Of a stretch of DNA of 64,000 bases, positions 379-43,672 are shown in pieces. The first letter of the stretch is position 1. Every line of letters starts with the position of its first letter. The translations under genes and the position numbers were made by a program. The notes below the pieces were generated by a model. That model did not search any database. It was not told the origin of the DNA and saw only the letters and a list, made by a program, of their open reading frames with translations. The DNA lies in contig NZ_FUWW01000011.1 in NCBI RefSeq assembly GCF_900167205.1, positions 1 through 64,000 of the forward strand, read 5' to 3'. This DNA is from Eubacterium coprostanoligenes. GTDB taxonomy: Bacteria; Bacillota; Clostridia; Oscillospirales; Acutalibacteraceae.

Positions 379-1431
379 ATGGTAGAAAAAAGCATTTTCG
401 GCACTCTTGCCGACGGAACAGCTATTGACCTTTACAAAATCACAAACAAAAGCGGTGCATTTGTGACACTCCAAACTCTCGGCGCAGGTATTCAATCAAT
501 CAATGTGCCTGACAAAAACGGCGTGCTTGCAGATGTTGTGCTCGGTTTTGACAATCCGCTGGATTACACAAATCCCGATCTTGGCTATCAGGGTTTGATT
601 GTCGGCAGATGGGCAAACAGAATCAGAGGCGCAAAGTTCACATTTAACGGTGAAGAATACACAACACCGATGAATCAGGGACAATGGACCTTGCATAGTG
701 GCGGTCGTTTCAGCTTTACACCTTGGGATGTTGAGGAAACAGGCGAAAACTATGTTGTTTTCAAGCGTTTTTCACCTGACGGAGAGGACGGCTTCGGCGG
801 CAACTTCACAATGAGAGTTAAGTACACATTCACCGAGGACAACACGCTCCGCCTTGAATACAGCATTCTTTCGGACAAGGACACGGTTGCAAACCCTACC
901 AACCACGCATATTTTAACCTTTCGGGCAATCCTGACGAAACCGTTGAAACTCACTTTCTCAAAATCAATGCAAACTACTTTACCGAAACCGATGACGACC
1001 AGCTTCCGACAGGTGAGCTTGCAGAGGTTGAGGGCACAATGATGGATTTCAGAGAGAGCAAGCAAATCGGCAAAGATATTGACAAGCCGTTCAGAGCCGT
1101 TATTGACGGAATCGGATACGACAACAATTTCTGCCTATACAAAAAGGATTTTACACTTCAAGAAGCCGCTGTGCTTGAGCACAAGGAATCTGGCAGAGTG
1201 CTTGAAGTTTTCACAGATTTGCCGGGTATACAGCTTTACTGCGGCGGATGGCTTGCAAAACAGGGCAATCCGGGCAAGGCAAACGGCAAGGTAACATACC
1301 GCAGAGGTGCGGCGCTTGAAACACAGTTCTACCCTGACACCGTGCATTTTGCGGATGTGTTCCCATCACGCTTTGTAAAAGCAAACGAGGAATTTAAAAC
1401 CACAACCGAATTCAGATTTTCCGTAAAATAA
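379..1431 (+). CDS. galM: Aldose 1-epimerase (mutarotase)
   Basis: This 350-residue protein should interconvert alpha and beta anomers of aldoses such as galactose in the cytoplasm. It has the family landmarks in order: the NRI segment near residue 77, LHSG near 106 and TNHAYFNLSG near 174 (the two histidines are the usual substrate and catalytic residues), and ALETQFYPD near 313, whose Glu is the usual catalytic base. The length is normal. It has its own promoter and an AAGAAAGGG site 7 bases before ATG 379. It is monocistronic, so the sugar it serves cannot be read from context. Confidence 0.93.
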   Translation: MVEKSIFGTLADGTAIDLYKITNKSGAFVTLQTLGAGIQSINVPDKNGVLADVVLGFDNPLDYTNPDLGYQGLIVGRWANRIRGAKFTFNGEEYTTPMNQGQWTLHSGGRFSFTPWDVEETGENYVVFKRFSPDGEDGFGGNFTMRVKYTFTEDNTLRLEYSILSDKDTVANPTNHAYFNLSGNPDETVETHFLKINANYFTETDDDQLPTGELAEVEGTMMDFRESKQIGKDIDKPFRAVIDGIGYDNNFCLYKKDFTLQEAAVLEHKESGRVLEVFTDLPGIQLYCGGWLAKQGNPGKANGKVTYRRGAALETQFYPDTVHFADVFPSRFVKANEEFKTTTEFRFSVK

Positions 1432-26517: not shown

Positions 26518-26593
26518 TGGAGCGGATTACGAGACTCGAACTCGCTACCTTCACCTTGGCAAGGTGACGCTCTACCGGATGAGCTAAATCCGC
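26518..26593 (-). tRNA. tRNA-Gly (GCC)
   Basis: This 76-base cloverleaf includes an encoded CCA. Acceptor GCGGATT pairs with AATCCGC, the D arm region is GCTCATCCGGTAGAGC, the anticodon arm is TCACC-TTGCCAA-GGTGA with anticodon GCC, and the T arm is GCGAG-TTCGAGT-CTCGT-like. A terminator follows. It reads GGC and GGT glycine codons. Confidence 0.95.
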
Positions 26594-26650
26594 AATTGCA
26601 AGACTTATTATAACCAAGATAGTTACATTTGTCAAGCATTAATTTTATTT

Positions 26651-40829: not shown

Positions 40830-41462
40830 ATGAAATCATACACAGTGTATTTATTAAGACACGGACTCACAAAAGGCAATCTTAACGCACAGTATATTGG
40901 GCATACGGATTATCCTTTGTCCACATTTGGTATAGAACAGCTCAAAGAGATAAAAAAAGAGCACCCGTATCCCAAGGTGGATGCAGTTTTCGTTTCTCCA
41001 CTAAAAAGGGCAATGGAGTCGGCTGACATAATGTACCCAAAAAATAACAAAATTGTAATAGATAACTTCATCGAGTACTCATTCGGCGAGTTCGAGGAGC
41101 TTACGGCAGACGATTTGAAGGACAACGAGGACTTCAAAAACTGGCTTCACGGCGATATGTATGCACGCCCGCCGTTTGGCGAAAGCAACGCAGAATTTGT
41201 GCAGAGAGTCTGCAAAGCGTTTGAACAAGTCGTTGAGGGTTGCGTGTCAACCGGCACAGAAAAGTTTGCCATAGTGTCGCACGCAGGAGTTTTGATGACG
41301 ATTTTGGCTTGCTACGGACTTCCGGAAGCACCTATGGCACATTGGCAAATGGACGCCGGCTACGGCTACAAGCTACGCATCACACCGTCAATTTGGATGC
41401 AGGGCAAAAAAGTTGAAGTTGTTGACACCGTACCCGTTTCGCTGAACGAATTGGAAAAATAA
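40830..41462 (+). CDS. Histidine phosphatase (phosphoglycerate mutase-like) family protein
   Basis: This 210-residue protein has the catalytic motif LLRHGLTKGN near residue 8, YIGHTDYPLS, VFVSPLKRAMESAD (near 50) and the second His in FAIVSHAGVLM (near 147). It is a cytoplasmic phosphatase or mutase; relatives include alpha-ribazole phosphatase CobC and broad phosphatases, and no cobalamin genes adjoin. CACGGAGGTTTT precedes ATG 40830. It is divergent from the XRE gene, which may regulate it. Confidence 0.88.
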   Translation: MKSYTVYLLRHGLTKGNLNAQYIGHTDYPLSTFGIEQLKEIKKEHPYPKVDAVFVSPLKRAMESADIMYPKNNKIVIDNFIEYSFGEFEELTADDLKDNEDFKNWLHGDMYARPPFGESNAEFVQRVCKAFEQVVEGCVSTGTEKFAIVSHAGVLMTILACYGLPEAPMAHWQMDAGYGYKLRITPSIWMQGKKVEVVDTVPVSLNELEK

Positions 41463-41469
41463 CATAGTG

Positions 41470-41498
41470 TTGACAAATTCAAACTAATTATATATAAT
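41470..41498 (+). promoter_or_regulatory. Promoter of antitoxin RNA
   Basis: TTGACA (41470-41475), 17 bases, TATAAT (41493-41498): exact consensus. No open frame of note follows on this strand. Confidence 0.8.
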
Positions 41499-41504
41499 AA
41501 AAAT

Positions 41505-41600
41505 GAACAAGGAGCAGTCTGACAGACGGTCAACCTCCTTGATTGAGCAATGAAGTAATCGCACTCATTTGGAAGTTTGGGCGATTACTTCTTCTTTATT
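41505..41600 (+). ncRNA. Putative antisense antitoxin RNA of a type I TA locus
   Basis: A transcript of about 95 bases is predicted from the promoter at 41470 to the hairpin at 41552-41591. It begins near AACAAGGAG and folds ACAAGGAG with CCTCCTTG. ACCTCCTTG is complementary to the AGGAGGT-type ribosome site in the toxin mRNA, and its 3' part is antisense to the toxin coding end. This is the layout of Fst/RNAII and TxpA/RatA. Confidence 0.65.
41552..41591. terminator. Shared bidirectional terminator of the TA pair
   Basis: GAAGTAATCGC (41552-41562) and GCGATTACTTC (41581-41591) form a perfect 11-bp stem. The toxin stop codon lies in the stem. T-rich sequence follows on the plus strand. Confidence 0.75.
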
Positions 41601-41659
41601 TCAATTATGTATCCTGTATATACTATAACGAAAACCGTTAGAATAATAAGAAAATCCAT
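41585..41659 (-). CDS. Small hydrophobic type I toxin (Fst/TxpA-like)
   Basis: This 24-residue peptide begins MDFLIILTVFVIVYTGYIIE and ends in IKKK: one membrane helix with a charged C terminus, as in holin-like type I toxins. AGGAGGTGG lies 6-8 bases before ATG 41659. The mRNA leader of about 85 bases starts at its own consensus promoter (41750-41778). It probably damages membrane integrity when not silenced by the antisense RNA. Assignment rests on architecture and peptide character, since such peptides are too short for firm homology. Confidence 0.7.
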   Translation of the reverse strand: MDFLIILTVFVIVYTGYIIEIKKK

Positions 41660-41749
41660 AATACCACCTCCTCGTTCTTCAAATGAAGTTCGGAGGTAAG
41701 ATTTAACCGCCTATCCGTTTTTCAAAACAAATCTCCTTGTCCGAAAAAG

Positions 41750-41778
41750 ATTATATATTATTCTGCAATATCTGTCAA
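41750..41778 (-). promoter_or_regulatory. Promoter of the type I toxin
   Basis: Minus-strand TTGACA (41773-41778), 17 bases, TATAAT (41750-41755): exact consensus. Confidence 0.8.
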
Positions 41779-41780
41779 TA

Positions 41781-41815
41781 AAAACGACCTATTATGTTTA
41801 ATAGGTCGTTTTTTA
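41781..41815. terminator. Terminator insulating the TA locus
   Basis: AACGACCTATTA and TAATAGGTCGTT form a perfect 12-bp stem with a 4-base loop, with As on the left and Ts on the right. Confidence 0.8.
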
Positions 41816-41819
41816 TGTC

Positions 41820-41953: not shown

Positions 41954-43672
41954 TTATTCTTCGTCAGTTTTTTCCGGTGCACGGGTGGTTACTTCACCGT
42001 AGTTTTCGTTGGTGTAGGTTGCCTGCACGGCATAGCCTGTTTCCGAATAAAATCCTGATTCACGGCAGTTGATGTAGTCAACTCTTGTGCGTGCAAGAGT
42101 GATGTTGCTCTTGCCGTAAATGTCCATTTGGAGCATATATGCGTCCATCGGATAGTCGGCTTTCCAGCACCAAGCGCCATAGAAATTACCGCCTGCGCCG
42201 TTCTCGTCATTTCTGTATTCAGGAAGATTTGACGACTTAACGGCATAGTTCATCCAACCCTCTTTGAGCGCATATTTTGCGGTTGAAACGATATTGCTCT
42301 TTGGCATATCGGTGCGGATGTAAGGCACCATATCGTTGAGGATTTTGAGAAGTTGAACGCTTGAAGCGCCCTTCAAATCGTCAAACACCTTTGTAAGACA
42401 AATCTTTTGGCGGTTTGCACGCATATTGTCGGAGTCAATCTTTCTGATTCTGCAATAAGCGAGAGCCTGCTTGCCCGAAAGTTTGAGCATGCCCTTTGTT
42501 CCGTCAAATGTCTTGTCGATGTAAACACCGCCGTATCTCTTTTGGTGGTTGTTGATTTCGTTAATTTCGGCACTTGTGAGTTCAAGCTCAACACCACCCA
42601 AATTGTCGATTATCTTTTCAAAACTTGTGAAGTTTACAATAACATAGTTGTCTATCTTGATTTTATAAAGATTTTCAACTGCTGAAATATAGGTGTGAAT
42701 ATCACCGCCGTCAGTGGACATTGCGCCGTTGATTTTGCCAAAATGACCTGTCGATTCGTCACCCGGTGTGTTTTCCCAATAAGCGTAGGCATCACGGAGA
42801 ATTGATGTGAGTTTAATCTGCTTTGTGTCAAGATTTACGCTTGCAATGATTGCAGAGTCGGCTCTCGTTCCGCTTTCAAGCACATTTTTGCCACGGGTGT
42901 CCTCACCGATGAGCATAATGTTGAGCACCCTTGTTGATGATACAGGCGTACCGTTTTTGTACCACTTCTTAATCATATCTTTGAGCGAGCCGATTTCCGA
43001 TGCGTCTGTTTCTTCAAAGTTGTCAAAGCACTCAACTCGCTCGTCCATTCTGAACGAAGAAACGCTGACTTGCTTGTCCGCATTTTCGTCCGTCACGGTT
43101 TCTAAAATATTGTTGACATACCAATAAACGCCGATTCCTGCGCAAAGAACGATAACAAGCAAAATGAGAATAACCTTAACAGCGGTGTTCTTCTTTTTCT
43201 TCTTGTCGTTTTTCTTCTTCTTTCTTGCACGGGCTCTGTCACGGGCATCCTTGTCGGAAGTGTTGATGTAGTAATTTTCGTAGTCGTTGTTTTGGTCAAC
43301 TATTTCCTTAACATCAACAAAGTCCTCGTCATCCGTTTTTGGCACTTTTTTGGCAGATTGAGCCTGCGGTTCAGCCTTTTTTACAGGCTTTTCCGCTTTG
43401 CTTTCAGGCACTTCCCGATGAACAGGCTGTGCCTCTTGAACAGGCTCTTGTGTTTTATCATTTGTGGTTTGAGAATAAGTATCCTGCGATTCCTCCTCGG
43501 TTTCTTCGCTTGGAGTTATATCCTCAACGACAGGCTCCGGTTTTTTGCTGTTGATAACTTCTTCAACAACTTTTTGTGCAGCTTCGTTGTCCGACTTAAT
43601 CTTAGCCTCGTTTTCCTCACGGCGTTTTTGAACCTCCGAGAGAATATCGTCGATATTATATCCTTTTTCCAT
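41954..43672 (-). CDS. LytR-CpsA-Psr (LCP) family protein
   Basis: This 572-residue protein has a long cytoplasmic, acidic and Pro-rich N terminus (about 1-155) and a basic patch before a membrane helix near 164-187 (VKVILILLVIVLCAGIGVYW). An extracellular LCP domain covers about 250-500 (ADSAIIASVN, LTSILRDAYAYW, YVIVNFTSFEKIIDNLGGV, LSGKQALAYCRIRKID, RANRQKICL). LCP enzymes transfer polyprenyl-linked glycopolymers to peptidoglycan. The catalytic Arg/Asp residues appear intact. It follows gyrA by 33 bases on the same strand. Confidence 0.92.
   Translation of the reverse strand: MEKGYNIDDILSEVQKRREENEAKIKSDNEAAQKVVEEVINSKKPEPVVEDITPSEETEEESQDTYSQTTNDKTQEPVQEAQPVHREVPESKAEKPVKKAEPQAQSAKKVPKTDDEDFVDVKEIVDQNNDYENYYINTSDKDARDRARARKKKKNDKKKKKNTAVKVILILLVIVLCAGIGVYWYVNNILETVTDENADKQVSVSSFRMDERVECFDNFEETDASEIGSLKDMIKKWYKNGTPVSSTRVLNIMLIGEDTRGKNVLESGTRADSAIIASVNLDTKQIKLTSILRDAYAYWENTPGDESTGHFGKINGAMSTDGGDIHTYISAVENLYKIKIDNYVIVNFTSFEKIIDNLGGVELELTSAEINEINNHQKRYGGVYIDKTFDGTKGMLKLSGKQALAYCRIRKIDSDNMRANRQKICLTKVFDDLKGASSVQLLKILNDMVPYIRTDMPKSNIVSTAKYALKEGWMNYAVKSSNLPEYRNDENGAGGNFYGAWCWKADYPMDAYMLQMDIYGKSNITLARTRVDYINCRESGFYSETGYAVQATYTNENYGEVTTRAPEKTDEE

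Follow-up and report, generated by a model that had tools for sequence, protein, structure and literature searches.

The stretch at 41463-41817 of the window (the window being the whole 64,000 nucleotides of DNA analysed here) lies between a phosphoglycerate-mutase-like gene (40830-41462, plus strand), presumably gpmB-like, and a gene which we take, likewise from the look of its sequence, to be LCP-like (41954-43672, minus strand). Read from the sequence, this stretch has the layout of a short mRNA for a hydrophobic peptide and an antisense RNA, convergent and overlapping. The features of the locus are the following, in order of position:

41470-41498, plus strand: antitoxin promoter, TTGACA-17-TATAAT, 12 of 12 consensus matches
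41505-41598, plus strand: putative antitoxin RNA of about 94 nt with predicted ends, matched over all 95 positions of the covariance model R1 (see below) at 80.3 bits, a score given by construction, as this copy is one of the 22 model sequences
41508-41541, plus strand: predicted 5' hairpin of the antitoxin (CAAGGAG...CTCCTTG), from the fold; the family core is here GACAGACGGTC and the anti-Shine-Dalgarno (anti-SD) segment ACCTCC lies within the hairpin
41552-41591, plus strand: terminator stem-loop, from the folds, overlapping the 3' end of the toxin frame
41585-41659, minus strand: putative toxin frame of 24 amino acids, MDFLIILTVFVIVYTGYIIEIKKK, from the list of open reading frames, with its stop within the terminator stem
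41666-41673, minus strand: Shine-Dalgarno (SD) sequence GAGGAGGT, upstream of the ATG, from the sequence
41692-41697, minus strand: cis anti-SD segment ACCTCC of the toxin leader, from the fold and the cognate same-sense match, identical in its letters to that of the antitoxin
41704-41711, minus strand: leader motif GGCGGTTA, which can form an 8-pair helix, one pair being G-U, with the terminator arm TAATCGCC
41733-41739, minus strand: CAAGGAG close to the start of the predicted toxin RNA, from the sequence, in the same sense as the antitoxin 5' end
41750-41778, minus strand: toxin promoter, TTGACA-17-TATAAT, 12 of 12 consensus matches

The two exact-consensus promoters that an earlier note on this DNA had described as facing each other were both recovered with all 12 positions and 17-base spacers, the antitoxin promoter beginning 8 bases past the stop codon of the gpmB-like gene. 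Exact matches with this spacer were found five times in the 64 kb window, two of them being the facing pair, against a mean of 0.00 in 100 dinucleotide shuffles; hence, exact promoters at this locus are not expected by chance. A further exact TTGACA-17-TATAAT was located at 26607-26635 (minus strand), just upstream of a tRNA gene (26521-26593). Directly behind the toxin promoter, a strong palindrome with a T-run (AACGACCTATTATGTTTAATAGGTCGTTTTTT, 41778-41818) was also observed, which may insulate this promoter or end read-through.

The predicted antitoxin RNA (41505-41598) folded as a 5' hairpin plus a terminator hairpin, with a z-score of -3.0 for the whole RNA, and no plausible frame was found within it, in agreement with the earlier description of a plus transcript devoid of a coding frame. 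The terminator hairpin (41552-41591) is followed on the antitoxin strand by a T-rich tail that forms a good T-tract. The toxin strand continues past the stem with CTTCATTGCTCA, which lacks a good T-run, and the T-tract of this strand is weak here and in most other loci. The claim that both transcripts share one terminator thus held for the plus-strand RNA, which the stem-loop would end, but the signal was weak for the toxin strand. A simple terminator scan, confined to loops of at most 8, listed none at 41552-41591 on either strand. The toxin and antitoxin RNAs are perfectly complementary over this region. The lysine-rich end of the peptide (AAG AAG AAG, 41588-41598) reads on the other strand as the terminator stem running into the antitoxin T-tract, so that one sequence serves both.

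The peptide frame and its leader

The earlier reading of the minus strand, a hydrophobic peptide of 24 residues behind a strong ribosome site and with its stop codon inside the terminator stem, was borne out. Homologous toxin frames were then compared in a sample of 51 frames and 137 non-independent pairs. The dN/dS was 0.41 in the toxin frame, versus 0.79 and 1.75 when the reading frame was shifted on that strand, and 1.16, 0.49 and 1.31 in the reverse frames, one of which was thus also low. The differences by codon position amounted to 714, 336 and 1086. The dN/dS of 0.41 and this codon periodicity support the translation of the peptide, albeit indirectly, and a bias toward hydrophobic residues at codon position 2 may add to the coding signal. 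On this sequence comparison, the peptide frame is under purifying selection.

In the predicted fold of the toxin mRNA (41552-41743, minus strand, z -2.3), a leader stem brings UACCUCC over the ribosome site. Across 75 loci, the pairing probability of the SD was 0.86, compared to 0.72 when the leader upstream of the SD was shuffled, and the mean z-score of the leader was -2.6.

Spread of the putative antitoxin RNA and its partner peptides

A DNA search of 98 genomes, that of the window included, gave 30 loci for examination. The antitoxin stretch was carried by 22 of them, the window included, and all of these but L004 had a toxin frame, that of L010 overrunning the usual stop. Loci L020, L022, L023, L026, L027, L029, L030 and L031 owed their matches to chance similarity in a promoter or flank and were excluded from the model. 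R1 was built as a covariance model from the 22 antitoxins, the window copy among them. Independent support for the membership of the window copy came from a DNA-level comparison with a locus of the same genus, which matched at 72% over 250 bases (E 2e-26), and this copy combines a full-length R1 match with a promoter and a partner peptide. The antitoxin 5' hairpin had a mean z-score of -2.7 over 85 non-redundant homologues; RNAalifold returned no consensus on the 85-sequence 5' alignment, probably owing to a misaligned left arm, and the folding z-scores were used instead.

R1 was found in 44 of 80 same-genus genomes (E 0.01, own genome included, three of them resting on matches below 30 bits), in 115 of 394 genomes of the order, covering 57 of 168 genera (E 0.001, own included), in 61 of 391 genomes of the class (E 1e-5, own included) and in 6 of 199 genomes of a phylum sample, counting the own genome and two of its class. 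One same-genus genome held 13 matches, each above 53 bits, and another held seven, three of them below 28 bits. A core pattern matched 97 stretches in 84,980 species genomes, the 80 titles listed being Clostridia, Bacillota or an unnamed bacterium, together with four viral contigs. Culturable species such as Agathobaculum massiliense, Roseburia faecis and Coprococcus comes were among the carriers. A second copy was present in the genome of the window itself (L089, G000:C14:117578-117677), with the peptide MEYAVIITLVLILAITLAVKE and both the leader and terminator motifs.

The surroundings of the window locus were also compared. The gene gpmB was found in 74 of the 80 same-genus genomes, and in 30 gpmB loci an XRE-like gene always stood on one side, with an LCP-like gene on the other in 23, the window included; the remaining loci were cut short or gave no match. 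No antitoxin match was detected between gpmB and LCP in any of the 22 relatives that showed both neighbours, so that the locus was either acquired in this genome or lost from the others. One of the 13 antitoxins in the multicopy genome (L237, 2980-3071, plus strand) lies just past the XRE-like gene next to gpmB, near but not at the site of the window locus.

Against phage and plasmid DNA, the window locus gave only short matches, covering at most 12% of the query among the matches listed. The order-level antitoxin query gave no phage match and retrieved seven plasmid records, three of which were examined further. A tandem array of three antitoxin copies, each with a peptide frame, occurs on a plasmid of Anaerotruncus colihominis (L264, 1500-2247), and an array of four, three of them with a peptide frame, on a plasmid of Monoglobus pectinilyticus (L265, 755-1914). 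In the three records examined, none of the peptides has a gene entry in the PLSDB table, which describes itself as incomplete.

At gathering scores, Rfam matched only tRNA over the window, with no match at the antitoxin; with a lax threshold, four homologous loci yielded real tRNA and sub-threshold matches, and nothing near the antitoxin. The best of the sub-threshold matches, OrzO-P and STnc370 (E about 0.05), fell on a stretch outside the antitoxin and were discarded. The motif letters of the antitoxin gave no match in a literature search of open-licence papers. The antitoxin RNA family looks so far unlisted, its absence from print being claimed for the open-licence literature.

The earlier note had proposed searching related genomes for the 24-residue peptide in the same layout, and this layout was found to recur. 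From 84 loci, 120 model matches were obtained, and the removal of 25 below 28 bits and of five repeats left 90 distinct ones of at least 39 bits. In 76 of these 90, the window and the model sequences included, the RNA was accompanied by a ribosome site and a short frame for a hydrophobic peptide that stopped at the terminator. In this set a wrong frame was taken for L082, and L062, L063 and one frame of L068 had over-long starts; 75 frames were used in the later tests. Among 99 distinct matches to the pattern, 81 had a short hydrophobic frame, with at least two, L126 and L208, apparently picked in error, and 89 had an antitoxin promoter with at least 10 of 12 consensus positions. The partners were of several kinds: one near the window type (...ILIVATGYIxSIKK), and others of the forms MEYATIITLVLI..., MxTYSDLFxFxLVIIGI..., MLTIEGLIAVISL..., MYFIFALILLYSIGFILSIKK and MSDFELLSIVLMILGI.... 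The window peptide gave no match over the cut-off in Pfam, and none in NCBIfam or PHROGs; none of five window-type peptides scanned passed any Pfam cut-off.

Fourteen of the 90 matches had no accepted frame, four because the frame overran the usual stop and ten because no frame with a ribosome site was present; five of these ten keep a 12/12 antitoxin promoter and at least two (L101 and L103) retain remains of the peptide. The earlier note had regarded loci that keep the promoters and lose the peptide frame as evidence against a toxin-antitoxin module. Such loci do occur (about 10 of 90), but they are not counted as a refutation, since toxin loss with the antitoxin retained is expected of a toxin-antitoxin system. 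L092 has a facing pair of antitoxin copies, each with a perfect promoter (806-894, plus strand; 946-1037, minus strand), and no toxin frame was found between them.

The recurrent layout, the selection on the frame, the conserved antitoxin RNA, and the tandem, plasmid, viral-contig and antitoxin-only copies support the type I toxin-antitoxin reading already made in the earlier note. In it the minus strand would give the mRNA of a probably toxic peptide and the plus strand an antitoxin RNA. Judged on sequence evidence, we assign this reading a probability of roughly 0.83.

Two other explanations were weighed against it. Chance promoters and a chance frame might lie beside a mobile regulatory RNA or riboswitch, which would agree with the conserved hairpin of the plus RNA and with the existence of peptide-less copies. 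Nevertheless, the codon-wise selection and the ribosome sites co-occurring in most loci examined argue against it, as do the exact promoters, unexpected by chance, and the Rfam results in the window and near the antitoxin of the four homologous loci, and we consider this explanation hardly credible. Alternatively, the same RNA control could act on a small membrane protein whose natural levels are non-toxic, e.g., a regulator of a membrane complex. Selection does keep a defined sequence, with TGY present in most members of 23 or 24 residues, the chromosomal copy adjoins household genes, and the weak likeness of some partner peptides to phage holins (E 0.006 to 0.03) leaves a non-addiction role possible for those partners. 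This explanation is nonetheless unlikely, given the many diverged peptides on one RNA, the multicopy, plasmid, viral-contig and antitoxin-only occurrences, and the gap between gpmB and LCP that holds no antitoxin match in 22 relatives.

Predicted pairing between the two RNAs

Nine contiguous pairs, including one G-U, can form between the two RNAs of the window locus (CGAGGAGGT/ACCTCCTTG), in addition to those of CAAGGAG near the toxin 5' end. The complementarity of the antitoxin to purine-rich segments of the toxin mRNA, as claimed earlier, was strong in this locus, but over 75 loci the cognate pairs did no better than the non-cognate ones, and an SD complementarity as long as that of the window was seen in few of the loci shown. 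The duplex energy between the antitoxin 5' half and the leader was -24.6 for cognate, -24.7 for non-cognate and -23.5 for shuffled pairs (sd 4.8), and the values for the SD helices were 14.19, 14.14 and 13.48, respectively (sd 2.5). Antisense pairing of the 5' half with the leader was rejected as the source of specificity, as it gave no cognate advantage (mean rank 38.4 of 75).

Furthermore, the two RNAs of most loci were found to share a same-sense motif absent from the earlier account, which runs from a CAAGGAG-like start through a core (CGGTAG or CGATAG) and CGGTTA to a C-rich segment. A same-sense stretch in two convergent RNAs is an inverted repeat on the DNA. In the window, the C-rich segment is ACCTCC in both RNAs. 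The segment of the antitoxin agreed better with its own leader than with those of others (mean 5.33 versus 4.34; 0 of 5000 permutations as high) in a test on 66 of the 75 loci, in which at least six leader picks were wrong, working against the result, and kinship of the loci inflates it. With the same-sense hairpin and anti-ribosome-site segment present in both RNAs and matched between cognates, the antitoxin seems to supply in trans a copy of the silencer built into the toxin leader.

A helix of at least seven pairs between leader and terminator was possible in 66 of the 75 loci, but also in 45% of the shuffles, a high background. Leader GGCGG was accompanied by terminator CCGCC in 102 of 138 loci (with one G-U form, and 32 loci unresolved or without the motif under the pattern used), and a compensatory change, leader GGTGGTT with terminator AACCACC, was seen in three loci, all of one genome. 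Since the 5' half gave no cognate advantage and the cognates are perfectly complementary in the terminator overlap, specificity was placed in this overlap, and we infer that the 5' hairpin is a shared silencer.

The mechanism that we propose for the toxin-antitoxin module begins with a predicted minus-strand mRNA of about 190 nt (41743 to 41552 or beyond), which would code for the 24-residue hydrophobic peptide, probably a single-helix membrane peptide and probably toxic when freely made. The leader would keep the ribosome site shut by means of the segment ACCTCC, and its second motif, GGCGGTTA, could pair with the terminator arm, giving a 5'-3' closure. The plus-strand RNA of about 94 nt would be the antitoxin. 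Pairing probably begins in the overlapping terminator region, where the complementarity is perfect. The antitoxin 5' hairpin, as a trans copy of the anti-SD segment of the leader, would keep the ribosome site closed and bring about cleavage of the duplex, presumably by an RNase.

Relation to known type I systems

The earlier note had labelled the locus Fst/TxpA-like and matched it to the par layout; the Fst part of this label was not supported. The par locus of pAD1 (Fst/RNA II) in Enterococcus faecalis has convergent promoters, an overlapping terminator, a short hydrophobic peptide and a leader that hides the ribosome site (PMC7472228), and all four features are also present here. However, par of pAD1 has direct repeats (DRa/DRb), whereas the main repeat here is inverted, being in the same sense in both RNAs; the antitoxin here is about 94 nt long with a conserved 5' hairpin, versus about 40 nt in par. 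The window peptide gave no Fst match at E up to 10 in Pfam or NCBIfam and, being without proline, lacks the PxxxG motif. Direct repeats of 7-9 nt, complementary to the SD and to the toxin 5' end, do exist in the window locus, and together with the convergent promoters and the overlapping terminator they would fit a true Fst/par member whose direct repeats block the start region. They are not a family-wide feature, however, the long SD complementarity being shown by few loci and the family-wide repeat being inverted, and membership in Fst/par is very improbable. The locus is very probably a type I toxin-antitoxin system other than Fst, a variant defined by its antitoxin RNA.

Hol_Tox (PF16935) was matched by some partners, three of 20 scanned peptides that are paired with the same antitoxin RNA exceeding its cut-off; the window peptide gave no match. 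A control search found Hol_Tox in Bacillus subtilis and Lactococcus lactis. It was over the cut-off in 4 of 117 genomes of the order, versus the antitoxin RNA in 115 of 394, and of seven Hol_Tox places in the 117 genomes one had a strong R1 match (54 bits), three had weak ones (at most 25 bits) and three had none. The link to Hol_Tox is thin, running through the shared RNA and layout only. Two of ten partners matched PepG1 (NF041589) of SprG1/SprF1 from Staphylococcus aureus weakly (E 6e-4 and 4e-3, with scores of 19 and 17 bits where the curated cut-off is 70), and the window-type peptides did not match it. In Clostridioides difficile, the type I modules RCd8-RCd12 are described as convergent and overlapping, with a small hydrophobic peptide and a lysine-rich end, and the type I toxins of this species as having 34-59 amino acids and no homology to known ones (PMC6563280). 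The layout and the lysine-rich end are the same here.

A broader reading, which we put forward tentatively and rate somewhat below even odds, is that of a Clostridia-wide toxin-antitoxin superfamily defined by its RNA, in which a single antitoxin scaffold persisted as the toxin peptide was repeatedly exchanged or rebuilt. Silencing in it would be by mimicry, through a same-sense copy of the anti-SD hairpin of the toxin leader, and pairing specificity would have two determinants, the hairpin common to the family and a terminator loop particular to each locus.

Searches for type I systems usually start from the toxin sequence. Peptides of the window type offer too little length and too much variation for this, as the scan of five against the Pfam cut-offs illustrates, and the antitoxin RNA model picks out the loci directly, matching 16% of the sampled genomes of the class and 29% of those of the order. 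The model therefore gives access to a widespread group of hydrophobic peptides in Clostridia, to the way toxins change while their antidote stays constant, and to cross-talk within a genome that has 13 antitoxin copies. Additionally, the same-sense leader copy provides a testable alternative to simple antisense pairing. The window locus looks like one member of a large family of many gut Clostridia, in which a single kind of antidote RNA accompanies tiny hydrophobic peptides of many different sequences.
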